DNA of 22,463 bases from a virus: the IMG/VR virus record IMGVR_UViG_3300050821_001888, positions 1 to 22,463 of that record, one strand, 5' to 3'. How positions within the stretch are numbered: the first letter of the stretch is position 1; each line of letters begins with the position of its first letter. The notes beneath the pieces are model-generated. The model did not search any database. It was given only the letters and a program-made list of their open reading frames with translations, and had not been told where the DNA came from. Of this stretch, positions 1-20,829 are shown piece by piece. Both the position numbers and the translations under genes were made by a program.

Positions 1-2
1 TG

Positions 3-554: not shown

Positions 555-1084
555 GCGACCTGCAAATCCGCGTCTCGTCCTGGGGCAGCGTCATGCTGGA
601 CAAGCGCGAAATGACGAAGCTAATGCGCGCCGCTGGTAATGACGTGAAGACGAAGACCGCGCGACTGATCAACGCGTCATCTGGCGGTGGAGCGATCACG
701 CATTATCGCGGCAACCGACACGGGACCTATCGCGCGTCGATGCCGGGTGATCCACCGGTTCGCGCGTCGGGCGATCTCCGCGCGAGCCTGAAGACGTATC
801 CCTTCAAGTCTGGCGACGGGTTCGCCGTCCGCGCCCGCCAGTTCTATGCCCTTTTCCTCGAAGTCGGAGCGCGCGGCGGAGGCAATCCGTTTGGAGGACG
901 ACCCGCCGCATCGGCCGCGTGGCGCGGGCAACAGCACCGCAAGCGCGCGCGCGGACGCTACACGCAACGCGTCCTGGAGCCGCGACCGTTCCTCGACCGC
1001 GTGATGCAGCAGGAGGAACCGATGATCGAACGCCGGATGCGCGTCGCGTTCGAGAGGGGATTGACCTGGAAGCAAACCAAGTGA
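551..1084 (+). CDS. phage tail completion / HK97 gp10-like or Mu gpG-like virion morphogenesis protein
   Basis: The 177-residue protein is basic and has the pattern PGDPPVRASGDLRASL in the middle (about residues 56-75), then YALFLEVGA and near the end LEPRPFLDRV. These are recurrent in the HK97 gp10 / virion morphogenesis families that act at the head-tail junction or in tail completion. Start is the ATG overlapping the previous stop (ATGA). The gene ends by overlapping the GTG of the tail terminator gene. Position directly before the tail terminator fits a connector or completion role. Family assignment is from motif memory only. Confidence 0.7.
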   Translation: MSDLQIRVSSWGSVMLDKREMTKLMRAAGNDVKTKTARLINASSGGGAITHYRGNRHGTYRASMPGDPPVRASGDLRASLKTYPFKSGDGFAVRARQFYALFLEVGARGGGNPFGGRPAASAAWRGQQHRKRARGRYTQRVLEPRPFLDRVMQQEEPMIERRMRVAFERGLTWKQTK

Positions 1085-1716
1085 ACGCGATCACGCCGCC
1101 GACCTCGATCATCGGCGGGTTCATCTCCTCGCTGCGGATGAACGCTCCGATCTTCGCCGGACGCGTCGCCGGGGCGGCGGAGTTCTATCGCGGCCTCCGC
1201 GACTACACGACCAGTCTACCGATGCCCGCCGCCTACGTCCTCCCGCTTGGCCAGGAAGCGGAGCCGAACAATAACTGGGGCGGGCTGTTGCAGATCATTC
1301 ACAAGGGCATCGGCATCGCCGTCGAACTCGACGCGCAACGCGATCGTCGCGGGCAGGACCCGACGATGCAGTTCGAGACGATCGAGACGCAGATATTCGC
1401 CTCGTGCCTATGGCTGCAACTCGGCGACTGCCGGATGGCGCGCGGAAGCTACTTCACCGGAGCGCGCTATCTCGACCTCGACCGCGCGCGCCTCTGGTAT
1501 CAGTGGGAGTTCGGCCTCGACTGGCAGATCACCGACGCCGACGGCGTGCAGCCGCAGTCGATCCCGCTCGAATCAATCGAGGTCGACATCTTCAAAGGAC
1601 CGAACGTAGCACCCGGCACGATGCCCGCCGCCGTGGTGCAGATACCGACCGGCGAGACGCCCGTCCCGCCGACTGACGGACCGTGGCCTGATCCAAGCAA
1701 ACGGAGGACCGAATGA
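1081..1716 (+). CDS. phage tail terminator protein, Mu gp37-like
   Basis: I chose the GTG at 1081, which overlaps the preceding TGA as GTGA and has a GGAAG Shine-Dalgarno at 1068-1072; a longer frame from 919 would lie inside the previous gene. The 211-residue product has the features of tail terminator proteins: LPAAYVLPLG-like text (here MPAAYVLPLG), a variable-length insert with DAQRDRRGQDP, a WLQLG region, and GARYLDLDRARLWYQWEF. Such proteins cap the tail tube and join it to the head. The next gene is the DUF2635 protein and then the sheath, the same order as in Mu-like phages. The C-terminus is Pro/Thr-rich and probably flexible. Confidence 0.75.
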   Translation: MNAITPPTSIIGGFISSLRMNAPIFAGRVAGAAEFYRGLRDYTTSLPMPAAYVLPLGQEAEPNNNWGGLLQIIHKGIGIAVELDAQRDRRGQDPTMQFETIETQIFASCLWLQLGDCRMARGSYFTGARYLDLDRARLWYQWEFGLDWQITDADGVQPQSIPLESIEVDIFKGPNVAPGTMPAAVVQIPTGETPVPPTDGPWPDPSKRRTE

Positions 1717-1898
1717 TTGTGAAACCCGCTCCGGGTCGCGCTGTCCGCGATCCGCGCTCAATGGCACTGCTGACGGAAGACGGTCGCGACGTGAACGAGC
1801 GCGACCCGTTCTGGGCACGCCGTCTCCGCGACAAGGACGTCGTCGAGGCCACAGGGGACACGCAACCCGTCCAAAAACCGGCAGCAAGGGAAGCGTAA
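1713..1898 (+). CDS. DUF2635 family protein (Mu gp38-like)
   Basis: This 61-residue protein begins MIVKPAPGRAVRDPRSM and continues to WARRLRDKDVVEA, the signature of the short DUF2635 family that sits just before the sheath gene in Mu-like phages. The function in the family is not established; it is presumed to help tail assembly. It starts at an ATG overlapping the tail terminator stop (ATGA). Only 4 bases separate its TAA from the sheath ATG, and the sheath ribosome binding site (AAGGGAAG) lies within its last codons. Confidence 0.8.
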   Translation: MIVKPAPGRAVRDPRSMALLTEDGRDVNERDPFWARRLRDKDVVEATGDTQPVQKPAAREA

Positions 1899-1902
1899 AG
1901 CG

Positions 1903-3375
1903 ATGGCAATCAATTTCACATACTACCCGACGAGCAACCGGGTCCCCGGTGTCTACGTCGAGATGGACCCGTCGCAGGCGAACACCGCGACGGTGCTTCA
2001 GAACACGCTTTTGATCGGACAGATCACAGCGGCCGGAGCCGCTATTCCGGACGAGCCGGTATTGATCGAAAGCAAGGCACAGGTCCTCACGCTATGCGGA
2101 CCCGGCTCGATGCTCGCACAGATGGCGAACCGCTACCTCGACCGCGATCCGTTCGGGCCGCTCTACATCCTGCCAGTCGCCGACGCCGCCGCGGCGGTCG
2201 CCGCCACTGGCACGATCGCGCTCGCCGGCACCGCGACGCAGTCCGGCACGCTGAACATCTACATCGGCGGCATTCGGGTGCAGTCGTTGGTAAATTCCGG
2301 AGACACCGCAGCGATCGCCGCGACCGCGCTCGCGGCAGCGATCACCGCGAACGCCGACCTTGCCGTGACCGCCGCCGCCGCGACAGGAACCGTGACGGTG
2401 ACCGCGAAGAACAAAGGCGCCGCCGCGAACGACATCATGATCATTCAGAACTATCTCGGCACTGCCGGAGGCGAGTATCCGGTTCCGGGGATAACGGTGA
2501 CGATCACGGCGATGTCGGGAGGCACCGCGAACCCCGACTTTTCCAACGCGCTCGCGAATCTCTCGTCGCAAGCGTTCGACTTCATCTGCCTACCCTACAC
2601 CGACACCGCGTCGCTCGACTTGATGAAGGATTTTCTCGCCGACGACGTCGGACGCTGGTCATGGGAACAGATGGTCTATGGCGGCGCGTTCTCCGCCTAT
2701 CGTGGCACGCTCGGCGCCTGCACCGCGTTCGGTCTCGCACGAAACGACCAGCATATGAGCGTGGTGGCGTTCAACGGCTCGCCCGATCCGGCATGGATCT
2801 GGGCCACCGAAGCGACCGCCGCATCCGCCGCTTCGCTCCGCGTCGATCCTGGCCTTCCGCTGCAATACATCAACACGACGCTAAGGGCGCCACCGATCCC
2901 GTCGCGCTGGTCGCTCGGCGAGCGGAATACGCTGCTCTATGACGGCATGTCGACGTTCCGCGTCGGTGACGACGGCACCGTGATCGTCGAGCGGATGCGG
3001 ACGACATACTCCAAGAACGCCGCTGGCGCGCCGGACGACTCATATCTCGACGTCGAGACGATGTATGGGCTGATGTTCGTCGCGCGCCAAATGTCGGACT
3101 ACCTGCTGACCAGATACGCGCGCAAAAAGCTCGTCTCCGACACGACGCCGATCCTGTACGGTTCCAACTGCGTGAACGCGCCGCTGATCAAGGCGAGCGT
3201 GATCGTCGATTATCGCGCGCTCGAACAGCAAGGCTACGTGCAGAACTCCGCCACCTTCGCGCAGAACGTGGCGGTCGAGAACGCGGGCGACGGACTGGTG
3301 AAAATCCTCGCGCCGGTCGACCTCGTCAATCAACTGCGACAGATCGCGATCCTGTTGCAGTTCCGCAAATCATAA
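1903..3375 (+). CDS. contractile tail sheath protein (Mu gpL-like)
   Basis: The 490-residue product matches Mu-type sheath proteins in length and layout. The N-terminus (about residues 1-60) contains SNRVPGVYVEMDPSQAN and NTLLIGQ, typical of gpL-like sheaths. Residues about 100-210 are Ala/Thr-rich and look like the variable outer domain. The C-terminal half has the conserved sheath core (for example near residues 230-270 and 400-490), ending with a helix-rich VNQLRQIAILLQFRK segment. The protein polymerises round the tail tube and contracts to drive it through the envelope. The start ATG at 1903 is preceded by AAGGGAAG. The tube gene follows 12 bases later. Confidence 0.92.
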   Translation: MAINFTYYPTSNRVPGVYVEMDPSQANTATVLQNTLLIGQITAAGAAIPDEPVLIESKAQVLTLCGPGSMLAQMANRYLDRDPFGPLYILPVADAAAAVAATGTIALAGTATQSGTLNIYIGGIRVQSLVNSGDTAAIAATALAAAITANADLAVTAAAATGTVTVTAKNKGAAANDIMIIQNYLGTAGGEYPVPGITVTITAMSGGTANPDFSNALANLSSQAFDFICLPYTDTASLDLMKDFLADDVGRWSWEQMVYGGAFSAYRGTLGACTAFGLARNDQHMSVVAFNGSPDPAWIWATEATAASAASLRVDPGLPLQYINTTLRAPPIPSRWSLGERNTLLYDGMSTFRVGDDGTVIVERMRTTYSKNAAGAPDDSYLDVETMYGLMFVARQMSDYLLTRYARKKLVSDTTPILYGSNCVNAPLIKASVIVDYRALEQQGYVQNSATFAQNVAVENAGDGLVKILAPVDLVNQLRQIAILLQFRKS

Positions 3376-3387
3376 AGGAGGGCAGCT

Positions 3388-3759
3388 ATGCCGCAATGTG
3401 AACGTCTCGCCGGTATAACCGGACTGACGATCGACGGCACGCCTTACATGGTGGTGTCGGACGTGACGTGGTCGCCGGTCCGCTGGCGACGAGAAACCCT
3501 CGCCGGCCTGGACTCGATCCACGGGTTCAGCGAGGTCCCGCTGCAAGGATACGTTGAGGCGACGCTACGCGACGCGGGCGACCTCTCCGTTGAGAGCTTC
3601 AACGAGATGCGTTGCGTCGAGGTGCAAGTCGCGCTCGCGAACGGCAAGATCGTCGGAGGCGCGAATATGTGGTGCGTCTCCGCACTCGAGGTCCGGGCAG
3701 CGGAGGGGACCTTCCAGGTCCGCTTTGACGGGACGGACGTCGCGGAAACCTTCGCATGA
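3388..3759 (+). CDS. phage tail tube protein (Mu gpM-like)
   Basis: The 123-residue protein follows the sheath, as in other contractile tails, and has the length of Mu gpM-type tube proteins. It is rich in beta-strand-like text with RRETLAGLDSIHGFSEVP in the middle and a C-terminal RFDGTDVAE. The segment after the start (CERLAGITGLTIDGTPY) fits the N-terminal strand of tube subunits. The ribosome binding site AAAGGAGGG just before the ATG is the strongest in the window, in keeping with a protein needed in many copies. The stop overlaps the next start as ATGA. Confidence 0.88.
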   Translation: MPQCERLAGITGLTIDGTPYMVVSDVTWSPVRWRRETLAGLDSIHGFSEVPLQGYVEATLRDAGDLSVESFNEMRCVEVQVALANGKIVGGANMWCVSALEVRAAEGTFQVRFDGTDVAETFA

Positions 3760-4091
3760 TGGACGCCATCGTCGACCAGTTCGACGCCGCGACGCCGGAC
3801 GAGCCGAACACGCTGGACATCGAGATCGACGTCGTGTTCCAGCGCAAGCCGTTCACCTCGCTACACCTCCGCGAGCCGCTGGCGAAAGAGATCGAGCGCG
3901 CGGAACGCGAACTGAACGTGGCGAGCGCGACGCCCTATCACTTCCGCCGCTACCAGATGACCTTGATCGCACAGGTCGCGAAGGTGCCGATCGAGGTCGT
4001 CGGCGAGTTGCCGAACTCGCAACTGCGGAGGGCTTGGGATTTTTTGCGGCGACAATTAGATGCCGATACCCCGGAAATTGGCGAGAACTGA
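3756..4091 (+). CDS. tail assembly chaperone, zero-frame product (Mu gp41-like)
   Basis: The 111-residue protein contains FQRKPFTSLHLREPLAKEIERAE, typical of the gp41/phage tail assembly (FluMu gp41-like) proteins that bind the tape measure during tail assembly. It sits between the tube and tape measure genes, the position of tail assembly chaperones. The start ATG overlaps the tube stop (ATGA). Near its 3' end is a T TTT TTG run (4040-4046), so a minor part of ribosomes probably shifts to the -1 frame and makes a longer product (see separate entry). The zero-frame product ends at 4091 after 14 further codons. Confidence 0.85.
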   Translation: MMDAIVDQFDAATPDEPNTLDIEIDVVFQRKPFTSLHLREPLAKEIERAERELNVASATPYHFRRYQMTLIAQVAKVPIEVVGELPNSQLRRAWDFLRRQLDADTPEIGEN

Positions 4092-4222
4092 TCGCTGATC
4101 TGACCCGCTGGTGGGGCTGGGGACCGCTCGACGCGTGGAACCTCGACGGCACGCAACTGATATGGTGGGCAGAACAGACACAACGCCTTCTCGAACGCGA
4201 ACGCGCCGCGCGCGAGACATGA
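3756..4222 (+). CDS. tail assembly chaperone, -1 frameshift product (gp41-like + GpE-like extension)
   Basis: After decoding the zero frame up to the TTG at 4044-4046 (97 residues), a -1 slip would continue in the other frame for 58 more codons to TGA at 4220-4222, giving about 155 residues. The extension reads WWGWGPLDAWNLDGTQLIWW and ends in a charged helix with LLERERA, resembling short P2 GpE-type tail proteins. The extension frame has no good start codon or ribosome binding site of its own after the shift site and stops 4 bases before the tape measure ATG. This is the layout known for P2 E/E', lambda G/GT and many others. The shift itself is inferred and has not been observed here. Confidence 0.75.
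4040..4046 (+). promoter_or_regulatory. -1 programmed ribosomal frameshift slippery heptamer T TTT TTG
   Basis: The six T residues at 4040-4045 plus G at 4046 lie in the zero frame as GAT TTT TTG, i.e. X XXY YYZ with X=Y=T and Z=G. Slippage by -1 moves from the gp41-like frame to the GpE-like frame. The same heptamer type is reported for the P2 E gene. It is located 43 bases before the zero-frame stop. No strong downstream stem or pseudoknot is obvious by eye. Confidence 0.75.
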
Positions 4223-4226
4223 GATA

Positions 4227-6287
4227 ATGGCCGGCTATTCCGTCACCTTCTCCGTCGTCGATCGCGCGTCGAAGGAACTCGACGCGATCAACCGCCGGAT
4301 CGCCGCGATCCGCGCGCCGATCGAGCGGATGTCGCGCTCCGTCTCGCGCTTCGTCGACGTCTCCGGACTCCGCAAGGTCGCACAAGGCTTCGAGTGGATC
4401 GGCAAGGCGGCGATGGGCGTGCTGCGGACCCTCGTCGAGATCGTCCCCGTCCTGGGCACGATCACCGGAGCCGCGAGCATCGCCGGCATGGCCGCGCTGG
4501 TCCGATCGTATGCCCAATGGTCGCGCCAACTGACCGCGACCGCCGACGGCCTCGGCATGACGACCCAGCAGGTGCAGCGGTTCGAGGACGCGATGCGCCT
4601 CGCCGGGGGCAATGCGTCGGATATGGACGAGGCCCTGAAGGGGCTTTACTCCAACACGACCGCCTTCATCCGTGGCCAGGCGTCGACCGACACGATCGGA
4701 TGGCTGAACCGGCTCGGGATCAACGTCCGCGATTCGACCGGCCATCTCCGGAACATGAATCAACTCATGCCGGAGGTGATCGACAAGATCAGCAAGATAC
4801 AAAACCCCGCCGACCGCGCCGCCGCCGCCGCCGCGCTCCTCGGCGAAAGCGGCGCCAAGGTGGTCGAGGGGTTCCGCCAGTCGAGCAAGGGGTTCGATGG
4901 GTTCTTTCGCGACGCGGAACGCTTCACCGCTGTCACCGATGAGCAGCGCAAGCAACTCGAACTGTTCAGCGAAGCGCAGGGCCGGATCGGTGTCGCCTTC
5001 GATCATCTCGGACAGCAGATCAGCGCGACACTGGCGAAGAACTTCACCCCGCTGATCAACCATCTCTCGGAGTTCGTCGAGAAACATTCCCCCGAGATCA
5101 TCGCCGCCGTCGACCGGATCAGCGGCGAGTTCGCCGCGTGGCTCGACGGCATCAAGTGGGAGAACGTCCAAAAAGGGTTCGACGCCCTGATCGAGTCCCT
5201 GACCTGGGTGTCGCAACATCTCGACACGATCAAAACGGTCGCGGAGATCATCGCCGGCATCTTCGTCACGAAGTGGGGCATCCAGGTCGTCGCCTCGATC
5301 GCGCAAGTGGTCGGCGCGCTCGGCTCGCTCGGCGGAGGGGCCGCGACCGCTGGCGCGGCAGCCGGAGGAGCAGGGCTACTCGGCGCGCTCGGCGCCGTCG
5401 CTGGTGTCGCCGCGTTACTCGGAGCCGGAGCCGCAGCAGGCAAGATGAACGCGCCGATGGTTGATGATAACGGTCGCGTCGTCGGAACCTGGGGCGGCAA
5501 GCCACAAGAGGCGCCGACCTCCGTCGTGAAGCCGGAGAACCTGATCACCGGCAAGTCGATCGGCCAAGGCATTGGCAACTGGGCGTCGCGCGTGTGGGGT
5601 CACATCAGCGGAACGAACCCTCAAGAGGGAGCGCTCGGGCTTCCGGCTCCCGCTCCTGGCCAAGCGCCGCAGCAACTCGGGCAGCTTCCGGGCGACACGT
5701 CCTGGGGTGACTACGGAACCCGCGCGAACAACCCCGGCAATATGAATTACGCGTCGTGGCAGAACGCAGCCGGTCGCTACAGCTACATGGACCAGACAGA
5801 AGGCCGACAGCACACGATGGCCGTTTACAACACGATGGAGGAAGGGGTCTCCGACGCTTACAAGCTGATGGTGCGAAAGCAGGAACAGCACGGCAAGACG
5901 ATTGCCGGAGCATTGTCGGGTTGGTCCACCACGCCGGGGTACGACAAGACGATCTCCGGAATAGCTGGCTTGGACCCGAATGCTCCGTTCGATGTGGCGA
6001 GCGCCGATCCGGCGACGGTCCAGCGCTTGATGGCCGCACAGTTCAAGATGGAGGGACGACGCGGCTCTCATTCCGCGACGCAAGACCAGATCATGGGCGG
6101 CATTGCCATGGCGCGAGGTGGAGCGTCCGACGTTCCGTCGCCGCCGTCCGGAACGATCAACGGCGCGGTTGACGTCTCGATCACGCACAAGAACCCGCCG
6201 CCCGACGCCGCCGTGACCGCCAAGGGGTCAGGCTCGGTCAATGTCGCTCCGCCCCGCGTCGAGTTTCAGGACTTCTCCACGGTATGA
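4227..6287 (+). CDS. tail tape measure protein with C-terminal peptidoglycan-active-like domain
   Basis: At 686 residues this is the longest protein before the spike and follows the chaperone, as tape measures do. The N-terminal half is mostly helical, with a hydrophobic segment at about residues 65-95 (VLRTLVEIVPVLG...) and a second, long Gly/Ala-rich hydrophobic region at about 330-405, likely to cross or disturb the inner membrane. Residues about 120-300 contain phage tail tape measure text such as LAGGNASDMDEAL and LLGESGAKVVEGF. From about residue 490 to 640 there is a separate domain with R499-ANNPGN, similar to the RxNNPGN motif of phage structural proteins linked to muramidase activity. 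A C-terminal tail follows. It overlaps the next gene by ATGA. Tape measure identity is sound; enzyme activity is inferred. Confidence 0.85.
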   Translation: MAGYSVTFSVVDRASKELDAINRRIAAIRAPIERMSRSVSRFVDVSGLRKVAQGFEWIGKAAMGVLRTLVEIVPVLGTITGAASIAGMAALVRSYAQWSRQLTATADGLGMTTQQVQRFEDAMRLAGGNASDMDEALKGLYSNTTAFIRGQASTDTIGWLNRLGINVRDSTGHLRNMNQLMPEVIDKISKIQNPADRAAAAAALLGESGAKVVEGFRQSSKGFDGFFRDAERFTAVTDEQRKQLELFSEAQGRIGVAFDHLGQQISATLAKNFTPLINHLSEFVEKHSPEIIAAVDRISGEFAAWLDGIKWENVQKGFDALIESLTWVSQHLDTIKTVAEIIAGIFVTKWGIQVVASIAQVVGALGSLGGGAATAGAAAGGAGLLGALGAVAGVAALLGAGAAAGKMNAPMVDDNGRVVGTWGGKPQEAPTSVVKPENLITGKSIGQGIGNWASRVWGHISGTNPQEGALGLPAPAPGQAPQQLGQLPGDTSWGDYGTRANNPGNMNYASWQNAAGRYSYMDQTEGRQHTMAVYNTMEEGVSDAYKLMVRKQEQHGKTIAGALSGWSTTPGYDKTISGIAGLDPNAPFDVASADPATVQRLMAAQFKMEGRRGSHSATQDQIMGGIAMARGGASDVPSPPSGTINGAVDVSITHKNPPPDAAVTAKGSGSVNVAPPRVEFQDFSTV

Positions 6288-7105
6288 GCGGCTCGTCGCC
6301 CGACCCGTTCGGGCAACTCTCCCAGGTCATCGGCAAGGCCGCGTCGATCGACAACTCCGGCAACTCGTGGAACGACGGCGAGTGGTGGCAACAGCTTCAG
6401 CCGGGGTCCTGGCGCGGGTGCGGTTTCGTCCTCGATGCCGGCCAGACCGTCGCAGGACGTCGCGTTGCGATCCACGAATACCCCTATCGCGACGACGCCT
6501 GGGCGGAGGACCTGGGCAAGCTCCCGCGCCGCTTCACCGTGCAAGCCTATCTGACCGGACCCGACGTCTATCAGCAACGCGACGCCATGATTGCCGCGTG
6601 CGAGCAATCCGGATCGGGAACCCTGGTGCATCCGACCCTGGGCTCGCTGTCCTGCGTCCTCATGGAGTTCTCCGTCACCGATCGCCGCGAGCGGGGTCGC
6701 TACGTCGAGGTTCAGTTCTCGTTCATCCTGGCTGGGGACGTGCAATACCCCTCGACCTCGATCGCCACCGGCTCGGCGGTGCAGTCCGCCGCCGCCAGGG
6801 TGACGAGCGCAGCACAGACCGACCTGGGGGCCGCGCTCGGGGAGATCGGAAGCTTTCCGCGTGTCGCTTCGGAGAACGTCGCCGGCTTCACCGGCTTTGC
6901 TACCGCGACCGTCGACGATGCCAGCCGCATGATCGGTGCCGTCGCGGGGCTACAGGGCTTCTATGGGCGGTTCTCGAACGGATCGCTGCAATCACTCGCG
7001 CCACCGACCGCGACCGCCCACAGCCTCCTGGCAGCCGCCACGACGACCCGCTCCGCCGTGTATGCCGCCGCCGACCTCGTCAACCTGACCGCGACCGCCT
7101 TATGA
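6284..7105 (+). CDS. Mu gpN-like protein, N-terminal (DNA circularisation N) domain
   Basis: The 273-residue product has the start of the family historically called DNA circularisation proteins: GSWRGCGFVLDAG (about residues 42-54), then AIHEYPYRDDAWAEDLGK and VQAYLTGPDV. In Mu-like phages gpN is a baseplate/tail component between the tape measure and gpP. Known homologues are about 450-490 residues, with a second conserved region at the C-terminus. Here that second region is encoded by the next gene, joined by an ATGA overlap. This protein alone is therefore the N-terminal half plus an Ala/Thr-rich segment. It also overlaps the tape measure stop by ATGA. Confidence 0.8.
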   Translation: MSGSSPDPFGQLSQVIGKAASIDNSGNSWNDGEWWQQLQPGSWRGCGFVLDAGQTVAGRRVAIHEYPYRDDAWAEDLGKLPRRFTVQAYLTGPDVYQQRDAMIAACEQSGSGTLVHPTLGSLSCVLMEFSVTDRRERGRYVEVQFSFILAGDVQYPSTSIATGSAVQSAAARVTSAAQTDLGAALGEIGSFPRVASENVAGFTGFATATVDDASRMIGAVAGLQGFYGRFSNGSLQSLAPPTATAHSLLAAATTTRSAVYAAADLVNLTATAL

Positions 7106-7668
7106 GCGCGCAAAGCGACGCGTTCGCCGCCGCCGCGACGCAGCTCGCCGGGGCACTCGTCGCAGCCTTCAACGATCCGCGCGACGCGATCCGGCTGCTG
7201 ATCTCGCTTACGTCCTGGCAGCCGCCGCTGATCCCCGGCACGGGGCCGCTCGCGGCGGAAGCGAACGCCGCGCAAGCCGCCCTCGCGGACAATCTCCGAT
7301 GTGCCGCCTGCGCCGCCCTTGCAGGGGCCACGCAAGCCTATCGCCCGTCGTCCTATCAAGACGCCACCGCGCTGCGGACCGCCGTCTGCGACGCCCTGGA
7401 CGCCCAGGCGACGGTGACAGCAGACCGGGGGAACGATGCGAGCTTCGCCGCCCTGCGGGACCTCCGGACCCTGGTCTCCCTCGACCTCGCCGTCCGGGGC
7501 GCGGCACTGCCCTATTTCGTCGAGATCACGACCGCCGCCTCGATCCCCTCACTCGCCGAAGCCTGGGCGCTGTATCAGGACACCACGCGCGAGCCGGCCC
7601 TCGTCGCCGCGTCCGGCGTCGCCCATCCGCTTTTCATGCCGCTGACCTACCCCGGATTATCGCGATGA
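7102..7668 (+). CDS. Mu gpN-like C-terminal region encoded as a separate gene
   Basis: The ATG at 7102 overlaps the stop of the gpN N-domain gene (ATGA). The 188-residue product ends with the pattern normally found at the C-terminus of full-length gpN proteins: AALRDLRTLVSLDLAVRGA, LPYFVEITTAASIPSLAEAW-type text, and VAHPLFMPL. Together with the previous gene the length is 461 residues, as expected for one gpN. I see no sign of decay, and the two products probably assemble together in the baseplate. A sequencing error that splits one gene is possible, but the exact ATGA junction argues for a real two-gene arrangement. Confidence 0.7.
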   Translation: MSAQSDAFAAAATQLAGALVAAFNDPRDAIRLLISLTSWQPPLIPGTGPLAAEANAAQAALADNLRCAACAALAGATQAYRPSSYQDATALRTAVCDALDAQATVTADRGNDASFAALRDLRTLVSLDLAVRGAALPYFVEITTAASIPSLAEAWALYQDTTREPALVAASGVAHPLFMPLTYPGLSR

Positions 7669-8894
7669 GCGACGCGCATGGCGTCTCCGCGCGCGGCGCA
7701 CCGGTCGGTGCCTCCGACACGCTGACCCTCACGGTGGGGAACAAGGTCCTCGATGGCTGGCAACGGGTTCAGGTGACGCGACCGCTCGCCGGGATCCCCG
7801 CCTCGTTCAACCTCGAAGTGACGGAGAAATATCCGAACAAGCCGGACGTCGACATCAAACCGGGCGATCCCTGCGAGGTGAAGATCGGCGGCGACCTCGT
7901 GATCACCGGTTACGTCGATCGCTACGCCGCCACGATCTCGCCAGCGCTTCACTCGATCCGCGTCTCCGGACGCTCCAAGTCGGAGGACCTGATCGACTGC
8001 TCGGCGGAGTTCGGCGACATCAACAAGCCGGGGTTCCAGACTGTGAACGGCACGACGCTCGCGCTCGTCGAGCAACTCGCCGCCCCCTATGGGATCAAGG
8101 TCAAGACATCGGCAGGCGATGGCGTGACGATCCCGCAATTCAACATCAACCTGGGCGAGACGCCGTGGGAGATCATCGACCGCGTCACCCGCTATTCACA
8201 AATGCTCGTCTATGACCTCCCCGACGGCTCGATCATGCTCGCCAAGGTGGGCACCGACAGCATGGCATCCGGCTTCTCGATCGGAGACAACGTCGAGCAA
8301 GGCGAAGTGACGCTGTCGATGGATCAGCGGTTCAGCGAGTACGAGGGGCATCTGACCTCGATCCTGACCTTCGGCACCGAAGCCGGAGTCAACACTCCGG
8401 ACGTCGGACAGGTGATCAAGGACGAGGGCGTGCCGCGGTATCGCAAGCGCTACGTGATCAGCGAGCAATTCGTGAACGGACGCGACATCGTCACCGACCG
8501 CGCGATCTGGGAAATGAACAAGCGGAAAGGGCAGTCGTTTCAGTTCAACGTGGTATGCGATTCCTGGCGCGACAGTGGCGGCAAGCTCTGGGAGCCGAAC
8601 AAGCTTTGTCCGATCTCCGCCGCCGTTCTGAAGCTCCGCAACGTGAATTACCTGATCGGCACCGTGACCTATCTCCGCGACGAAAGCGGACAGCACGCGA
8701 CGCTGTCCCTCTGGCCGCCTGAGGCGTTCGCCGTCGAACCGTCCGGACCGCTTGGCATCGTCACCGTCGAGGACGTCGAAAACAACAATCCGACGAAAAA
8801 GGAAACCGACACGACCACCCGGGGCGGGTCGGTCCGCAGCGACACGAACCTTCCGTCCGACAGCGGATCAGCACCACGGACCGCCATCGTATGA
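7665..8894 (+). CDS. baseplate hub protein, Mu gpP-like (gp44)
   Basis: I use the ATG at 7665 (ATGA overlap with the previous stop), which gives 409 residues; the open frame extends further upstream but only as shadow. The N-terminus contains [24 protein letters not shown], and the middle has [20 protein letters not shown] and [16 protein letters not shown], hallmarks of the gpP/gp44 hub (a gpD/gp27-type fold) on which the spike sits. Near residue 160-170 is [18 protein letters not shown]. The C-terminal 50 residues are polar and low-complexity ([16 protein letters not shown]). The next gene encodes the spike, as in Mu. Confidence 0.88.
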
Positions 8895-11749
8895 CCGCGA
8901 CCGATCGCCTTTATCGCCGCGTCCAGATGGCGGTCGCCTCGGTGACGATCTCCGCCACCAATGACAAGGGGCCGGTGCACCTCGTCCAAGGCAAGGTGCG
9001 CGGCACGCCGGAGACGATCGACAACCTGCAAACGCTGAACCTCTACGGGTTCGCCTCGCACGCTCCGGTTGGCTCCGACGCCCTGGTGGTCTTCGGCAAC
9101 GGTGACCGCTCGAACGGCGCGATCGTCGCGACCGCCAATCAGAAGGCCCGTCCGCGCGATCAAGCCGAAGGCGAGGTGTCGATCTATGACGACCTCGGCA
9201 GCGTCGTCCGCCTCGCCAGGGGCGGGAACATCGACGTCGCCGCCACCGGGACGCACACAACGAGCGTTCCGACCGTCGCCGTCGAGGCAACGCAGGGCGT
9301 GACGATCACCACGCCACAGCACCACGTCGAGGGCCGAAGCTCGGTCTCCGAAGCGCCCATCTCGCCGAACGACGTCGCGACGAAAGGTTACGTCGACGGG
9401 GTGGTGGGCGGCGGGGTGGTGGGACCGCCTGGACCAGAAGGCCCGGCTGGTCCGACCGGACCGACCGGGCCAGTCGGACCGCAGGGACCCGCCTCGACCG
9501 TTCCTGGACCGGCTGGGCCAGCCGGCGCCACGGGGCCACAAGGACCGCAGGGGCCAGCCTCGACAGTGCCCGGACCGCAAGGACCCGCAGGGCCTACGGG
9601 CAGCACAGGGCCACCAGGACCGCAGGGCGATCCTGGTCCGACCGGAGCGGACTCCACCGTTCCAGGTCCGCCAGGACCGCAGGGCAGTACCGGGCCACAA
9701 GGACCGATCGGCTTGACCGGGCCACAGGGGCCACAAGGCCCATCTGGAGCCGACAGCACGGTGCCAGGACCGCCGGGGCCACAGGGCGACACTGGCGCGC
9801 AAGGGCCACAAGGTGCAGCCGGGCCGACGGGTGCCACCGGACCACAAGGGCCAATTGGCTTGACCGGCGCCACCGGGCCGCAGGGCGTGCCTGGAGCAGA
9901 CAGCACCGTGCCAGGACCGCCAGGGCCAATCGTGGTCAGCGCCGACGCGAACAACTTCGCTCACCTTGGCAGCGACAGCTTCATATACGTTCCACCTGCA
10001 TTGCCGCTCACAGGTGGTGCACTCAGTGGAGGACTCAGCTTCGGTAGCGCGGTTGCTGCTAATGCAAACGACGTGACGCGGCACATCGCGTTGTATGCAA
10101 CGACATTCGGGATCGGCATTACTGGCTCGCGGATCAATTACAATGTGCCCGCCACAAACTCGCACTTTTTCCGCAGCGGCAACGCGGATCGCGTTCAGAT
10201 CACCGACGCCGGGATAAACATGCAGGCAGGGACGGCGATCACTCTTGCTGCTGATCCCACGGCCGCGCTGCACGCAGCAACGAAACAATACGCGGACGTG
10301 CATCCATTCGCCGATGCCGCGAACAACGCTTTCACTTACGCTCGCCATCAAAATGCGTGGGCGGCCGTGCCCTCGATTGTGCGCATCGGCACCAGTCAAT
10401 CATGGGACCCCGGAAGCATCGACGCGACGAATTCGGGGCTGATCGGAATCTGGACGGTCGTCAATCAGGGCGGCACTGGCGTCAACTGGCCAGCGGGAAA
10501 CGTCGATCAGACCGCGCTGATCCTGCACGGTTACAACTCAAATGCTGGCTGGCAGAATCAGCTTATGATGGGCGGCCGTGAGCGCGGCGGCGGCGCGGCG
10601 ATCTGGTATCGCAGCACAACGGATGGAGGATTTACGCCGTGGCGCCGCTTGCTCAGTGATGCCGGAGGCGCCCTCGTTGCCGGTGCAACCCTAACGCTCG
10701 ACGCTGATCCGACGACCGCACTGCAAGCCGCGACCAAGCAATACGTGGACAACACGGTCACCGCGTCCGGCGTGTCGTCGTTCAACACGCGGACCGGCGC
10801 CGTCACTTTGACGTCCGGCGACGTGACGACGGCACTTACGTTTACTCCGTATAACGCCACCAATCCGGCCGGTTACCAGACCGCCGCACAGGTCGCGACT
10901 TCGCTTGGTTCCTATCTTCCGCTTAGCGGTGGCACGATCACCAGCAACCTGACGGTCAATGGCGGACTGACCGCCAACACGATCTGGGGCAATCCAACGT
11001 TTACCGGCTCCATTTACGTGAACGGCACCGGCACCTTTTATGGCGACGGTAATTTGATGTGTTGGAGCAATAGCGGCGGTGTCGTTCGCATGAGGTTCTA
11101 TAGCGCTGGTGTTCGTGATTGGCGCTGTGGCGTTGATGGTAGTGGCAGCTTCGCTATCTCCGACGAAACTGCCGGCGCTTACCGGCTCTATGTCGATACC
11201 AGCGGCATCGTTCGCGCTCCGAATAGCGTCGTCGCGGGAAGCAACTTCCAGGCTTGTAACGGCGACGCGAACTGGGGCTATGGCGGCAGCGGGCGCATCC
11301 TGCAAATGGCCGCCAGTTGCTACTTCGATTTCGATAACACCGGGCAATTGACGTGGTACCGCTTCGGCAATGCTGTGACGATCCTGCGAAACGATAACTA
11401 CTTCGGCAACTACGCCGGGCCGGTATTCGGCAACGGTGCCTACGCCAACACGTCCGATCGCAGGCTGAAGGAGGAGATCGAGGACGCTCCGGAAGGGCTG
11501 GCGGCGGTCCGCAAGCTGAGTCCTCGCAAGTTCGTTCGCAAGGGTTCGCACTACAAACGCCGGGAAGTCGGCTTCATCGCCGACGAGGTGCGCGACGTCA
11601 TACCGGAAGCGGTTGTCGAGCTGACCGAGTTCCATCCGACGAAAGAGACGATGCTGGGCGTTCACGAGACCATGCTGATCCCGGTGCTGGTCAACGCAAT
11701 CAAGGAACTGGCAGCGCGCGTCGAAACCTTAGAAAAGGGGCGTCCCTGA
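8891..11749 (+). CDS. baseplate spike (Mu gp45-like) fused to collagen-like, fibre and S74 chaperone domains
   Basis: One uninterrupted frame of 952 residues. Residues 1 to about 130 are a clear Mu gp45-type spike: [20 protein letters not shown], then [18 protein letters not shown] and [18 protein letters not shown]. Instead of the HxH-type metal-binding tip, the protein goes through an ATKGYVD linker to a Gly-X-Y collagen-like region (about residues 178-347), then fibre text with two more ATKQY linkers ([13 protein letters not shown] and [15 protein letters not shown]), a pyocin-knob-like segment (about 470-593, with [10 protein letters not shown] and [10 protein letters not shown]), a beta-rich region with [16 protein letters not shown], and an S74 peptidase/intramolecular chaperone domain at the end (SDRRLK, Ser855 and Lys860). 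The chaperone is expected to trimerise the fibre and cut itself off before Ser855. Start ATG overlaps the gpP-like stop. Confidence 0.85.
9421..9932 (+). repeat. collagen-like Gly-X-Y coding repeat within the spike-fibre gene
   Basis: About 500 bases encode Gly-Pro-rich triplets ([17 protein letters not shown] and similar). The repeat is interrupted five times by the insert STVPGP, preceded by A or D (ASTVPGP twice, DSTVPGP three times), and by GPIGLTG segments twice. At the DNA level the words are GGACCGCAGGG-like and GGGCCACAAGG-like with varied third positions. Such triplets form trimeric stalks in phage fibres. The antisense strand shows long open frames here, which come from the repeat and not from a gene. 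Confidence 0.9.
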
Positions 11750-12093
11750 TGGCCACGACGATCATCACGAACACTGGTCCCTACACATTCGGACAACTGA
11801 CGAACCAGAATATCTCGCGACTTATCAGCCTAAATACGAACATCGGGCGGCTCTTTGAGGCGATCGCCACCGCGAGTTCCGGTTACGACGGGGTTCCCGG
11901 CACCGAGTTCGAGATCGGCAACCCGACCAACACGGCGATTCAGAACCTGTTCGGTATTCAGGCGTCCACCACACCGGGCGAACAAGGCAGCGCATACTCC
12001 TACGCGGTCGGGCAACTGCATACCGCGTGGGAAACCTTCTGGACTGCGGCGGCGCCCTATATCGAACAACTCGACAACGGCACCGGGTATTGA
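11749..12093 (+). CDS. small protein of unknown function between spike and gp46-like genes
   Basis: The 114-residue product starts at an ATG sharing one base with the spike stop (TGATG), with AGAAAAGGGG just upstream. It has no motif I recognise. The N-terminus (about 1-50) is NTGPYTFGQLTNQNISRLI..., polar and helix-prone; the protein ends with AAPYIEQLDNGTGY. The same ending, PYIEQLDNG, recurs at 16023-16079 as an 18-codon frame directly after another S74 fibre gene, so this gene seems to travel with the fibre module. A fibre accessory or assembly role is possible but unproven. Confidence 0.7.
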   Translation: MATTIITNTGPYTFGQLTNQNISRLISLNTNIGRLFEAIATASSGYDGVPGTEFEIGNPTNTAIQNLFGIQASTTPGEQGSAYSYAVGQLHTAWETFWTAAAPYIEQLDNGTGY

Positions 12094-12115: not shown

Positions 12116-12703
12116 GTGACCGCCTGGATCGAAGCCGGCGGGCTGCCGGTCGTGCAACCGGACGGACCGATCCCGCCCGCGACCTGTGCGGGCGACATCC
12201 TGATCCTGTGGGACAACGTCATCACGATTGGCGACTGGGTCATGGCGGAGGGCGATCTTCAGTCCGGCCAGGACCTCGAAACCGACTGCCTCGTCTCGCT
12301 GTTTACCGACAAGCTAGCGACGCCCGACTTCCGCCCGACTGACGGAACCTCCGACCGGCGCGGCTGGTGGGCCGATCCGTACAACGAGCGTCCACTCGGC
12401 TCGAACCTCTGGCAACTCGAACGCGCCAAGAAGACACGCGACACGCTCGGGCTGGCGCGCCGCTACGCACAAGACGCGTTGCAATGGCTGATCGACGACG
12501 GCATCGCCTCGACCGTCGTCGTCGACACCCGCTGGATCGGCCCCGCCGTGGGATCGACCATGCTGGGGATCGCGATCGCGATCACGCAGCCGGACGGATC
12601 GTTATCGCGATTCGTCTATGGCTGGGCATGGGACGACCTCGCCGTCCTCCGGATCGCCGCACAGGGTCCGCCGATCGCCTCGACACAAAGGATCGCAGCC
12701 TGA
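12116..12703 (+). CDS. baseplate protein, Mu gp46-like
   Basis: GTG start at 12116 with GGAGGGGG at 12102-12110. The 195-residue product carries gp46 family text: LFTDKLATPDFRPTDGTSDR, then RGWWADPY, GSNLWQLERAKKTRDT and ARRYAQDALQWLIDDGIAS. Gp46-like proteins are small baseplate components related to the wedge proteins of contractile tails. It lies directly before the gp47/baseplate J-like gene, the same order as in Mu. The preceding 22 bases hold only the ribosome binding site. Confidence 0.88.
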   Translation: MTAWIEAGGLPVVQPDGPIPPATCAGDILILWDNVITIGDWVMAEGDLQSGQDLETDCLVSLFTDKLATPDFRPTDGTSDRRGWWADPYNERPLGSNLWQLERAKKTRDTLGLARRYAQDALQWLIDDGIASTVVVDTRWIGPAVGSTMLGIAIAITQPDGSLSRFVYGWAWDDLAVLRIAAQGPPIASTQRIAA

Positions 12704-12704
12704 C

Positions 12705-13829
12705 ATGCCATTCGCCCGACCGACGCTCACGGGACTTCGCAATCAAGCGATCGAGGACATCACCACGTCGGGCGTTCCCGGCCTCGACGGACTGCTCCGC
12801 AACGCGGTGCTGCGGGTCCTGGCTTGGGTCATGTCGGGCCTCGCCTATAGCGTGTATGGCTACGCCGACTGGATCGCCCGCATGGGCGTTCCGTTCACCG
12901 CACAGGACGAGTTCCTCTACGCCTGGGCCGCCCTCGTCGGTATCTTTCCGAAGGACGCGACCGGCGCCTCCGGAACCGCGCAATTCAACGGCACACCCGG
13001 TCAGGTAATCCAGCAGGGCACGACACTGACCCGCGTCGACGCGACGCCGTACGAGACGACAGCGGACGGCACAGTCGGCTCGAACGGCATCGTCGAGGTG
13101 CCGTTTACCGCCCTGGTGTTGGGTGCTGCGACGAACTGCATCGCCGGGACGCCGATCTCGATCGCGACGCCGATCACCAGCATCAACGCGTCCGGTGTCA
13201 CGATCGGTCCGACGACGGGAGGCGCGGATCAAGAGACTGACGACGAGCTTCGGACCCGGATGCTGCTACGCTACCGCGACCCGCCGCAGGGCGGTGCAGC
13301 GTTCGATTACATCGAATGGGCGATCGAAGTGCCAGGATGCACGCGTGCCTGGGTCCTGGGGAACGGGGCGGGCGTCGGGACCGTCGTCGTCTATCCGATG
13401 TTCGACGACGCGAACGCCGAAGATGGCGGGTTTCCGCAAGGCACTGACGGCGTCGCGACTGACGAGACACGCTGGCCGGTGATCGCGACCGGCGATCAAT
13501 TGACGATCGCGAATTACATCTACACGCGCCAGCCGGTGACCGCGCTCGTCTATGTCGTCGCGCCGCTGCCGTTCCCGATCGACGTCGCGCTCTATACGCT
13601 CGACCCTAACACGCAAGAGATGCGCGACCTGATTACTGCCGCGTTGGGCGATATGTTCACCGGCAAGGCGGAGGTCGGCGGCACAGTCTATCCGTCGGAC
13701 ATCTATGAGGCGATCCTCGCAACGCCTGGGATCAATCACTTCACCGTCTCGTCGCCGTCCGCACCGATTCAAGCGCCGGTCGGATCGCTTCCTGTCATGG
13801 GCGCCCTGTCAGTGACACTCGTCAATTGA
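12705..13829 (+). CDS. baseplate wedge protein J-like (Mu gp47-like)
   Basis: ATG at 12705, one base after the gp46-like stop, gives 374 residues, normal for gp47/baseplate J proteins. The N-terminus contains LRNAVLRVLAWVMSGLAYS and YGYADWIARMGVPFTAQDEFL; the centre has the typical GGADQETDDELRTRMLLRYRDPPQGG (about residues 175-205), the best-conserved baseplate J segment, followed by YIEWAIEVPGCTRAWV. The C-terminal part ends with VGGTVYPSDIYEAILATPGI, also typical. It forms the wedge ring of the baseplate together with the gp46- and gp48-like proteins. Confidence 0.92.
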   Translation: MPFARPTLTGLRNQAIEDITTSGVPGLDGLLRNAVLRVLAWVMSGLAYSVYGYADWIARMGVPFTAQDEFLYAWAALVGIFPKDATGASGTAQFNGTPGQVIQQGTTLTRVDATPYETTADGTVGSNGIVEVPFTALVLGAATNCIAGTPISIATPITSINASGVTIGPTTGGADQETDDELRTRMLLRYRDPPQGGAAFDYIEWAIEVPGCTRAWVLGNGAGVGTVVVYPMFDDANAEDGGFPQGTDGVATDETRWPVIATGDQLTIANYIYTRQPVTALVYVVAPLPFPIDVALYTLDPNTQEMRDLITAALGDMFTGKAEVGGTVYPSDIYEAILATPGINHFTVSSPSAPIQAPVGSLPVMGALSVTLVN

Positions 13830-14510
13830 ATGCCACAGCTTCCCGTCTACTCCTCGACGGACTTCCTCTGGCAGTTCCAACGCCTGTTGCCTCGTGGGCG
13901 CGTCTGGCATCGCGGCTGGGGCACGCTACAGGCCCAAGCCCTGTTGACCCTCATGCCGACCTGGGCGCGGCTGCACCTCCGCTTGAACGACCTGATCAGT
14001 CAGATATTCCCATGCTCGACAACCGAACTCCTGACGGAGTGGGAGCAGACACTCGGCCTGCCCGATCCGTGCACCGGACCGCTGGATACAATCCAGCAGC
14101 GCCAGGGCGCGGTGTGCTCCAAGTTTTGCTCGCGCGGAGGACAAAGCAAACAATACTTCATCGACCTTGCTGCGGCTGCCGGCTTCGCGATCTCGATCAA
14201 GGAGTTCGCGCCATTCCGCGCCTCGATCAACCGTGCCGGCGACCCGGTGCGCGGTCAGGACTGGGCTTTCGCCTGGGAGATCACCACACAAGCGACGACC
14301 ATCGTCTATTTCCGCGCCAGTCTCTCGACCGCCGGGGAGCCGCTCGCGACCTGGGGGAACAAGACGCTGGAATGCCTGATCGAGCGATATGCGCCCGCGC
14401 ATACCGTGATCATCTGGCGCTACGTACAGGAAGGCGGCGGGTCGGTCTGGGATCGCGGAGAGTCGATCTATGACCAGGGCGCGTCCCTTTGGGATGGGCT
14501 GAATGGATGA
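13830..14510 (+). CDS. putative phage tail protein, YmfQ/DUF2313 family (Mu gp48-like)
   Basis: ATG at 13830 follows the gp47-like TGA without a gap. The 226-residue protein has family marks: LLPRGRVW near residue 20, DLISQIFPCSTTELLTEWEQTLGLPD (about residues 50-75), then QRQGAVCSKF. These proteins end the wedge series and attach fibres or stabilise the baseplate. The last 21 residues form three heptads, SVWDRGE / SIYDQGA / SLWDGLN, an extension not part of the core family. The gene overlaps the following fibre gene by 8 bases. Confidence 0.85.
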   Translation: MPQLPVYSSTDFLWQFQRLLPRGRVWHRGWGTLQAQALLTLMPTWARLHLRLNDLISQIFPCSTTELLTEWEQTLGLPDPCTGPLDTIQQRQGAVCSKFCSRGGQSKQYFIDLAAAAGFAISIKEFAPFRASINRAGDPVRGQDWAFAWEITTQATTIVYFRASLSTAGEPLATWGNKTLECLIERYAPAHTVIIWRYVQEGGGSVWDRGESIYDQGASLWDGLNG

Positions 14511-16026
14511 GCGTCTCGCGCATCGCGTCCTGACGGGAGGACGTCCCGCCCCGCGCCGCGCGATCCCGCGCGCGCCCGCGCCAGCGATTCCAGCGAGCGC
14601 GACAGTGCCCGCCCCGCCGCGCCTTCCTCGCGTGCTGGCCGCACCGCCGCAACAGCGCCGACCACCGCTCGCGCCACAGCCAACGCAGAAGCTTCGGCGC
14701 CGCCTGATCGCGACGACCCACCTCGCACCGGTCCCGTCCCTGCCCACGCCTTACGCTTCGCAGATCAACCCCGCCTATCCGATCTATGGCACGCCGACGA
14801 CGCAAAGCGTTCGCGACAATTTCGGTCACGCCCGAGACGAGATCAACGCATTGCAAATGGGCAAGCTCGATCTCGCTGGCGGCACTATGACCGGACGCTT
14901 AACCCTCTGGGGTCCACCGACACTGCCGTCCGACGCAGCGACGCGGCAATACGTCGACGATAGCACCGCTGGAGGCGACTTCCTGCCGATCACCGGCGGT
15001 GCGCTCCTCGGCCCCCTAAGCATGAGCAATAACAAGATCACGCAGCTAGCAGACGCCACCTCTGCGCAGGACGCTCTCAACACGCGCGTCGGTGACGCCC
15101 GCTATTACGCGGCGTCAAACCCGGCCGGGTATCAGACCGCCGCACAGGTCAGTGCGGTGGTCGGAAACTACCTTCCTTTGGCTGGTGGAACTTTGTCCGG
15201 CAGTCTCGGAGTGAACGGCAATCTAGATTGCCTCAATCAGATCACCGGAGGCAACGTCATCTCGACCGGCTCGATTATGAATTACTCGGGCGCCTTCTAT
15301 GTCGCGAACAATTACGCCTATTATCTCGCCCGCAACCCTAACAATGGAGAGTGGACCTTCGTTGACGCAAACAACGCCCTCGCTGCCGTTCGATCAGATG
15401 GATCATTTTGGGCTAGTAGCTACATCTCCACGCCCAGCTACATACAAGCAAACAACTACATTTATGGCGTCGGCGGCCTCTACGCCTGCAACACAGAGAT
15501 GTATTTTGGTTATGGCGGCAGTGGCAGAACCATGCAGATGGCGCCTAGCTGCTACTGGGACTTCCTCAGTGATGCTTCCCTGGTCTGGAACCGCTTCGGA
15601 GCGCAGATCATCGCCGCTCGCTCCGATGGCATCCTCGGGAATTATCAATGGTATGTCGCCGGGAACGGGGACTATTCCAACTGGTCGGACGCGCGACTGA
15701 AGGATCAGATCGAGGACGCCGAATACGGCCTCGCGCACGTCCGCCAACTCCGCGTGCGTCGCTTCGTCCGCAAGGCGACGCGAGGACTGCCGACCCCCCC
15801 GATCGAGATCGGCTTCGTCGCACAGGAAGTGATGGATGTCGTGCCGGAAGCCGTGACCGCCCTCACAGTCCCCGCTGGCGCGCTTCCGATCGACAGTGAC
15901 ACCGCCCTTGCCGTTCAGGGCGGAATGATCACCGCCATCCTGGTCAACGGGATGCAGGAACTAGCCGAGATCGCCGACACGATCACGGACCGAATGGCAA
16001 CCCTCGAAGCACGGATCGGGGTATGA
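14503..16026 (+). CDS. tail fibre with S74 intramolecular chaperone domain
   Basis: The 507-residue protein begins with about 70 residues rich in Arg, Pro and Ala, then fibre attachment text NPAYPIYGTPTTQSVRDNFG (about residues 87-106), a KLDLAGGTMTGRLTLWG segment, a DAATRQYVDD linker, LPITGGALLGPLSM, and [20 protein letters not shown], shared with the spike-fibre gene (18 identical bases in CAGACCGCCGCACAGGTC). It ends in an S74 domain with SDARLK (Ser395, Lys400) and VGFVAQEV-like text. The chaperone should release itself from the fibre before Ser395. It likely forms a receptor-binding fibre. Start: ATG at 14503; later in-frame starts are possible because the first 70 residues are low-complexity. 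Confidence 0.82.
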   Translation: MDERLAHRVLTGGRPAPRRAIPRAPAPAIPASATVPAPPRLPRVLAAPPQQRRPPLAPQPTQKLRRRLIATTHLAPVPSLPTPYASQINPAYPIYGTPTTQSVRDNFGHARDEINALQMGKLDLAGGTMTGRLTLWGPPTLPSDAATRQYVDDSTAGGDFLPITGGALLGPLSMSNNKITQLADATSAQDALNTRVGDARYYAASNPAGYQTAAQVSAVVGNYLPLAGGTLSGSLGVNGNLDCLNQITGGNVISTGSIMNYSGAFYVANNYAYYLARNPNNGEWTFVDANNALAAVRSDGSFWASSYISTPSYIQANNYIYGVGGLYACNTEMYFGYGGSGRTMQMAPSCYWDFLSDASLVWNRFGAQIIAARSDGILGNYQWYVAGNGDYSNWSDARLKDQIEDAEYGLAHVRQLRVRRFVRKATRGLPTPPIEIGFVAQEVMDVVPEAVTALTVPAGALPIDSDTALAVQGGMITAILVNGMQELAEIADTITDRMATLEARIGV

Positions 16027-16080: not shown

Positions 16081-17265
16081 ATGTATCGCATCGACAATTC
16101 ATCCGCCGCGACGACGCTCGCCGCCCCAACCACACCGGGCGCGATCCCGAATGGATTCTTTCAGGAAGGCAACCCGTCACTCGGGATCGACGCGACGATC
16201 CTCGAGGCCGAATGGCTCAACATGGTACAGGAGGAAGTATCCAACGTCATCACCGCGAACGGACTCGGCGCGGCCGGGGGAGCCGCTGACCTCAACAAAG
16301 ACGCGCGCAATCAACTCCTAACCGCGATCCGCCGCGAGGTCGCCAACGGGGTCTCTGGACAAATCCCCGACGTCTCGAACTTCGTGCATAAGACTGGTGA
16401 CGTGATGAGCGGGAACCTGACGGTTCCCGGCCTGATTGCCACGACCTTGCATGTCTCCGGCACCGGCATCCAGTACACCGATACGCACACCTATCGCTTC
16501 ACCTGGGATGGCAGCCTCATGGCATTTTATGTCGATGGGACATCCCAAGGACACGTAGCAGCAAGGGAATGGACGAGCGCGAACTTTGCCACGATCGCAT
16601 ACTGCCAGGGAACCTTCCTTCCGTTCAGCGGTGGAACTATCTCGGGCAATCTAAGCGTCTCGAACCATCTCGACGTCGGTGGCGGCGGCATCAACACTCC
16701 TGGCGGGGTGACAGCGACGACCGGCCTCTTTGCAGGCTCCGACCAACTGCTCTCCCTGTATACCTCTGCGGATGGCACGCGTTTCGCGCAGTTCATCAAC
16801 GGGTTTAGCCTTCAACTACTGACACCGGCCGTCTCCGGTTTTGATTGGACCTTTGACATTCAGCGCTATGGCGCGACGTGGACACAATGGCGCGGCAGCG
16901 ACATGACGTTTTTCAACGCGCTGGCAGCGGTAGGTGGGGCTGGTGCTTACTTCCAGGTTTCGGACGCCCGCACGAAAGAAGACATCGCGCCGGAGACACG
17001 GGGCCTTGACGTCGTTTGCGCGCTTGAACCCCGCAGCTTCCGCCGCATAGCGCGAGCCGATCGCGCGCTGTTCGACCGCGAGGTCGGCTTCATCGCGCAA
17101 GAGGTTCGCGACGTGCTGCCGGAAGCGGTCGCCGAACGGTCGCTCGCAGACACGGAGGACGACGCGCCGCTACTGGTGACGACCCTCGATCCGATCGTCG
17201 CCGCCCTGGTGAACGCAACCAAGGAGATCGCCGGGCGTCTCGTCGCGCTGGAGGCTAAGTCTTGA
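16081..17265 (+). CDS. tail fibre with N-terminal attachment region and S74 chaperone domain
   Basis: The 394-residue protein opens with MYRIDNSSAATTLAAPTTPG and FFQEGNP...ATILEAEWLNMVQEEVSNVI, an N-terminal attachment region common in phage fibres (residues 1-85). A beta-rich shaft with TGDVMSGNLTVPGL and LPFSGGTISGNLSVSNHLDVGGG follows. The end is a third S74 domain with SDARTK (Ser294, Lys299) and REVGFIAQEVRDVLPEAV. It differs from the preceding fibres in the shaft, so it may bind another receptor or be an alternative tip. The last bases overlap the convergent gene on the minus strand by 11 bases. Confidence 0.85.
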   Translation: MYRIDNSSAATTLAAPTTPGAIPNGFFQEGNPSLGIDATILEAEWLNMVQEEVSNVITANGLGAAGGAADLNKDARNQLLTAIRREVANGVSGQIPDVSNFVHKTGDVMSGNLTVPGLIATTLHVSGTGIQYTDTHTYRFTWDGSLMAFYVDGTSQGHVAAREWTSANFATIAYCQGTFLPFSGGTISGNLSVSNHLDVGGGGINTPGGVTATTGLFAGSDQLLSLYTSADGTRFAQFINGFSLQLLTPAVSGFDWTFDIQRYGATWTQWRGSDMTFFNALAAVGGAGAYFQVSDARTKEDIAPETRGLDVVCALEPRSFRRIARADRALFDREVGFIAQEVRDVLPEAVAERSLADTEDDAPLLVTTLDPIVAALVNATKEIAGRLVALEAKS

Positions 17266-20610: not shown

Positions 20611-20829
20611 TCATTCCTCGTCCTCCCCGTCCTCTGCGATGTAGAAGTTCCGCTCGTTCTCCGGGCACTCCTCGCGCATCAACGCGAGCGCGCGCCGCAC
20701 GCTGACCGACTCGGTCCCGTAGGACTCGGTGACGTGCCCGCACAAGCTGCACGTCGCCTGTACACTCTCGACCTCGCGCCCGTCGTCGTTCTCGATCTCG
20801 ACGAACTCGATCGCGCAATGGACCTTCAT
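20611..20829 (-). CDS. small protein with possible zinc-binding cysteines
   Basis: The ATG at 20829 follows GGGAGG with 7-base spacing and overlaps the endonuclease stop (ATGA). The 72-residue product has Cys27-SL-Cys30 (ATCSLCGHV) plus Cys5 and Cys55, and an acidic C-terminus (EDGEDEE). The CxxC pattern suggests a small zinc-binding protein of the sort common in phage early regions. Family and function not recognised. Confidence 0.65.
   Translation of the reverse strand: MKVHCAIEFVEIENDDGREVESVQATCSLCGHVTESYGTESVSVRRALALMREECPENERNFYIAEDGEDEE

Follow-up and report, generated by a model that had tools for sequence, protein, structure and literature searches.

A Mu-type baseplate spike fused to a collagen-stalked fibre and an S74 chaperone in an uncultured contractile-tailed phage

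Textbook models keep recognition, which is carried out by lateral fibres, separate from piercing, which is carried out by a sharp, metal-capped spike. Fibres that contact a receptor on the tail axis are known from siphophages (the central tip fibres of the lambda gpJ and T5 pb4 type), where the tail is non-contractile and the tip protein unrelated; the fibre proposed below would share this on-axis position, but its locus differs in possessing a sheath gene and hence a contractile tail. Domains that extend past the spike point are likewise found in the evolved VgrG and PAAR-extension proteins of type VI secretion, where they are effectors for delivery, in contrast to the receptor-type fibre described here. 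Phage proteins with collagen stalks are familiar, as are S74 chaperones; the collagen-like prophage proteins of E. coli are side or separate fibres rather than part of a spike. In the latter proteins a Gly-X-Y stalk has been reported (PMC3368898).

The closest described relatives of the present spike are Mu gp45 (PF06890; PDB 9ki1, 3vto) and its SfV-like counterparts, with which it shares the OB and beta-helix parts, the gene order and the hub partner gp44. In Mu, Milano and the majority of relatives the chain terminates with a short apex that in many cases bears an HxH metal site, whereas the present spike continues into a stalk, a fibre and a chaperone. The HxH motif binds iron at the spike tips of P2, phi92 and Mu, its Milano version being given as 166-HVH-168 (PMC10811340). 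In Bacillus phage Vp4 a spike and cell-binding modules are reported in one chain (Gp111), which is split in Deep-Blue (Gp188 and Gp186) (PMC11406892). As in our locus, a piercing-spike module is thereby joined to cell-binding modules in the central spike, although the hosts are Gram positive, the spike is R2-pyocin-like and the modules are carbohydrate-binding; the Vp4 and Deep-Blue spikes are not known to carry a collagen stalk or an S74 domain or to involve an exchange with a metal tip (PMC11406892). A search of the open-licence literature yielded no published account of a Mu-type spike with its tip exchanged for a collagen-stalked fibre, Vp4/Deep-Blue being the nearest case, and thus no sign that the architecture had already been described as common, an outcome that the initial annotation of this DNA had named as fatal to its proposal.

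The fused gene and its genomic setting

The DNA under study (the window) is the entire 22,463-nucleotide stretch of IMG/VR virus record IMGVR_UViG_3300050821_001888. It carries an ordinary Mu/SfV-type contractile tail module in the order sheath, tube, tape measure, DNA-circulation/hub protein, gp44, fused spike, 114-aa ORF, gp46, gp47, gp48 and two S74 fibres (Table 1), with the fused gene in the gp45 slot (gp44-gp45-gp46-gp47-gp48). Elsewhere in the window, the head-tail joining region upstream of the sheath contains the end of another fibre-like protein, with a TKQYVD motif and a coiled-coil end (3-554), and a GIY-YIG type homing endonuclease lies near the right end (20826-21377, minus strand).

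Table 1. Tail module genes of the window and subdivisions of the fused spike-fibre gene
Feature	Position	Strand	Remarks
Contractile tail sheath	1903..3375	+	marks tail type
Baseplate hub gp44	7671..8894	+	start approximate
Fused spike-fibre gene	8891..11749	+	single open frame, 952 aa; Pfam; synteny gp44-gp45-gp46-gp47
Spike module, residues 1-174	8891..9412	+	gp45 N-terminal/OB domain and beta-helix part; PF06890; without the apex/metal-tip domain of Mu gp45
Junction motif ATKGYVD, residues 163-169	9377..9397	+	motif again at residues 463 and 614; ATRQYVD form in lateral fibre
Collagen-like stalk, residues 175-347	9413..9931	+	Gly-X-Y with five STVP-type interruptions; Pfam and repeat count
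Middle fibre region, residues 348-587	9932..10651	+	without Pfam or phage-protein match; model pLDDT 49
Distal fibre part, residues 588-947	10652..11731	+	closest to same phage's lateral fibre, 39% over 389 columns
S74 intramolecular chaperone, residues 855-952	11453..11746	+	Ser855/Lys860 dyad; predicted cleavage before Ser855
114-aa ORF	11749..12093	+	no known family; possible fibre accessory protein
Baseplate wedge gp46	12116..12703	+	
Baseplate J/gp47	12705..13829	+	
gp48	13830..14510	+	counterpart is lateral fibre dock in Mu
Lateral fibre with S74 domain	14503..16026	+	distal half resembles that of central fibre
Second lateral or short tail fibre with S74 domain	16081..17265	+	

The initial annotation had read a Mu gp45-type spike, a collagen-like repeat and an S74 domain in one frame, and this reading was borne out by 952 codons without a stop and by Pfam domains above their cut-offs. 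Phage_Mu_Gp45 is matched at residues 19-84 (window 8945-9142; E 1.8e-14; 53.8 bits against a cut-off of 24.1), and residues 7-146 align with residues 16-146 of the 197 of solved Mu gp45 (PDB 9ki1; E 1.3e-7), so that the homology covers the OB and beta-helix parts and stops before the apex. The collagen repeats begin past residue 170 (Pfam Collagen, E 9.5e-18, above the curated cut-off); the stalk comprises 173 residues of interrupted Gly-X-Y, close to the 170 first estimated, of which 147 lie in runs of at least four triplets, whereas 1000 shuffled sequences averaged 5 such residues and never exceeded 42. If triple-helical throughout, it would be approximately 49 nm long. The stalk thus follows the beta-helix part where the Mu apex would be expected, in agreement with the earlier view of a fibre at the tip of the spike. 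Judged as a member of the gp45 family, the protein possesses the N-terminal domain and the gp44/gp46 slot and lacks the apex HxH, a feature that is typical but not universal, being absent from 22 short relatives.

At the distal end, Peptidase_S74 (PF13884) is matched at residues 855-908 (E 1.9e-12; 47.7 bits, above the curated cut-off), and Ser855 and Lys860 exhibit the S74 catalytic spacing and are invariant across 25 aligned S74 proteins. A single-chain model of a 352-residue fragment was confident only over the chaperone (about 261-352), the fold of which is closest to the self-cleaving MyRF chaperone (7dc3), with a weaker match to the endosialidase chaperone (3gw6). After the predicted self-cleavage, residue 854 would be the last of the fibre. 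The pyocin-knob-like region of the initial annotation is a tentative label based on motif resemblance: residues 348-612, searched for such a knob, gave no Pfam or phage-protein match, and the middle region was poorly modelled. Internal ribosome sites or starts from which the fibre alone might be made were also sought, and only weak candidates with awkward spacing, none of them convincing, were found.

Gly-X-Y repeat DNA misassembles readily, and an in-frame stop interrupts the stalk of one relative (L012), which might suggest that a spike gene and a fibre gene were joined by an assembly or frame artefact. This explanation is scarcely credible: a second contig (IMGVR_UViG_3300021403_000063) overlaps positions 1-10101 of the window (10.1 kb) at 99.98% identity and reads continuously from spike through stalk into fibre, while 28 further, diverged representatives carry a fusion in the same gene slot. 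The frame error that had been put forward as a potential refutation was rejected on these grounds.

Fused and short spikes in related loci

Baseplate loci were gathered by searching viral contigs with gp45, gp44, gp46 and gp47, each as a query of its own, and 18 isolate-phage records were added; the survey is non-random, as loci were picked by their likeness to the genes of the window and some representatives are near relatives. The phages with the fusion belong to a group of uncultured, mostly soil-type, contractile-tailed phages. In nearly all representative loci, fused and short alike, the gp44-spike-gp46-gp47 synteny is maintained. When bacterial and archaeal genome contigs were scanned with the spike query, no relative emerged. 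The 119 representative spikes comprise 29 that are fused, 65 that are short with HxH near the end, 22 that are short and blunt, and three that run off their contig; the domain order spike, collagen and S74, for which a search had been recommended, recurs in the sense that some of the 29 fused representatives have S74 ends, others terminating in different fibre ends or in a coiled coil alone.

HxH was found in none of the 29 fused spikes (residues 125-225 scanned) as against 65 of 87 short ones (Fisher p=9e-14, a value which overstates independence because the loci were found by likeness and some representatives are closely related); the first set had given 0 of 23 and 23 of 38, respectively. 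The tip motif and the stalk are therefore mutually exclusive, the stalk standing in place of the metal tip. Since approximately one quarter of short spikes lack HxH, the metal tip is dispensable in this clade. All 18 isolate phages have short spikes (163-209 residues from the start of the domain), 16 of them with HxH, and as none carries the fusion, it would have escaped studies of cultured model phages.

The fused state has been gained or lost repeatedly. On a tree of the 112-residue spike core, the distribution of fused and short spikes necessitates at least seven changes, all forced by well-supported branches, while the longer gp47 gives nine changes, seven of them forced; these counts fit gain or loss alike. 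The nearest neighbour of the window's spike on the core tree is L009, which is 85% identical in the core and has a normal HxH tip, and on the gp47 tree L151 (720 aa, fused) and L155 (189 aa, short) form a close pair of opposite states.

A conventional spike encoded elsewhere in the phage would have undermined the proposal. The 21 fused records (the window and 20 others, the largest of 47, 42 and 41 kb) yielded neither a second gp45 nor a PAAR cap nor a gpV-type spike, and no second spike was found in the overlapping upstream contig; since all of these records are fragments, a separate tip protein of another kind may lie elsewhere. The same search does detect PAAR genes, which adjoin two of the 22 blunt short spikes, no recognisable cap being found for the remainder. 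An additional 21-residue match in the record of L157 fell below the family cut-off and was set aside.

Several individual loci merit mention. The PAAR genes directly follow HxH-less spikes (L121, about 3318-3590; L179, about 9628-9924) and represent a third way of capping in the group. L142, L145, L146 and others have blunt 155-aa spikes with neither HxH nor fibre, and no PAAR is present in the records of L145 and L146. In L141 a separate S74 fibre gene (2516-3694) lies between the fused spike and gp46, as if stalk and fibre had been split into adjacent genes. The stop in L012 (6321-6323) is followed by resumption of the stalk and the coiled-coil end in the same frame, which is indicative of a broken fused spike or a sequencing error. 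An 83 kb contig (IMGVR_UViG_3300046536_000173; L244, L252) carries two different fused spikes some 40 kb apart and may represent two prophages or a chimera. Relatives of the 114-aa ORF occur solely between fused spikes and gp46 (the window, L012 and L158) and beside none of the short spikes in the searched loci, making it a possible accessory or assembly protein of the central fibre.

Likeness to lateral fibres and the proposed role of the central fibre

The distal part of the window's fused protein aligns with the lateral fibre of the same phage with an E of about 1e-60, far above the lateral fibre of any other phage. Nine phage groups were testable because a lateral fibre of their own is on record, and in five of these the distal end is matched best by that fibre, with wide margins of 202 versus 97, 203 versus 44, 171 versus 85, 254 versus 81 and 204 versus 85 bits (p=3e-7 against 53 phage groups, a post hoc value because the likeness was noticed first and formalised afterwards). 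The own lateral fibre does not rank first in the other four, and certain ends match lateral fibres of different phages of the clade (for example L139 with L137, and L255 with the contig of L012). As the distal ends resemble own or clade lateral fibres, central and lateral fibres draw on one pool of receptor-type ends, and the ATKQYVD-type motifs at module borders of both may be exchange sites.

We propose that the fused protein equips the spike of a Mu/SfV-type contractile tail with a receptor-binding fibre on the tail axis, over and above the lateral fibres, a reading which is probable, if far from certain. The receptor role is favoured because the distal end is of the type borne by the lateral fibres, often resembling most closely that of the same phage. 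A fibre of approximately 50 nm on a piercing point is, on the other hand, mechanically awkward. Moreover, several fused relatives (L006, L014, L117 and L237) possess a stalk with only a short tail or coiled coil and no receptor-binding domain, so receptor binding is not the reason for the fusion in every case. Such relatives are also consistent with the main rival explanation, according to which the stalk is chiefly a trimerising or stabilising substitute for the metal knot, the fibre ends being opportunistic and receptor binding secondary; the mutual exclusivity of tip motif and stalk agrees with such a substitution, as do the short spikes L128, L152 and L155, which end directly in a similar coiled coil without a stalk. 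We regard this explanation as unlikely, since the window and more than half of the other fused spikes have 150-950 residues past the stalk, which in five of nine groups resemble the phage's own lateral fibre and would be superfluous to a stabiliser, and since some blunt spikes manage without any recognisable device.

In the proposed on-axis receptor fibre, the OB and beta-helix parts would rest on the gp44 hub and close off the tube, as they do in Mu. Such a location is the most likely one because gene order and matching domains are those of Mu, and from it the fibre must exit along the tail axis. By analogy with the protein families concerned, three chains would associate, the apex with its HxH-bound metal being replaced in each chain by a thin, hinged collagen stalk, followed by a trimeric fibre folded by the C-terminal S74 chaperone, which would then cut itself off before Ser855. 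The fibre would act as a central leg, contacting the same class of surface receptor as the lateral fibres and helping to guide the tail axis to the cell; contact with the receptor may thus be made by the needle itself. The breaks in the stalk could be hinges, permitting it to fold aside as the tube advances.

Release of gp45 from the hub during infection has been proposed for Mu (PMC11915804), and if the same applies here the whole spike-fibre may go in or be lost. At contraction, we infer, the flexible stalk would either hinge aside or enter with the released spike, while the blunt beta-helix would pierce. The release proposed for Mu would equally accommodate a fibre that is shed or proteolytically separated before or at adsorption, leaving a conventional blunt spike to do the work and a fibre that serves only early reversible binding, and S74 proteins do cut themselves, albeit after the fibre. 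We consider such shedding improbable, as there is no recognisable protease site between spike and stalk and the S74 cleavage takes off the chaperone only.

Returning to the on-axis receptor fibre, a broader generalisation, which we offer tentatively and hold to be somewhat less probable than the role proposed for the window, is that contractile-tailed phages repeatedly give up the metal-capped point and acquire instead, out of the pool of their own lateral fibres, a receptor-binding fibre on the axis, such that the same part senses the receptor and leads the tube. Close pairs with and without the fibre (the window and L009; L151 and L155) open the question to a direct test. A clade in which the spike point has been exchanged for a receptor-type fibre, often matching the lateral fibres of the same phage, implies that a phage can dispense with the sharp tip and that recognition can also involve the tail axis, which, if true, would represent a different mode of triggering or aligning contraction.
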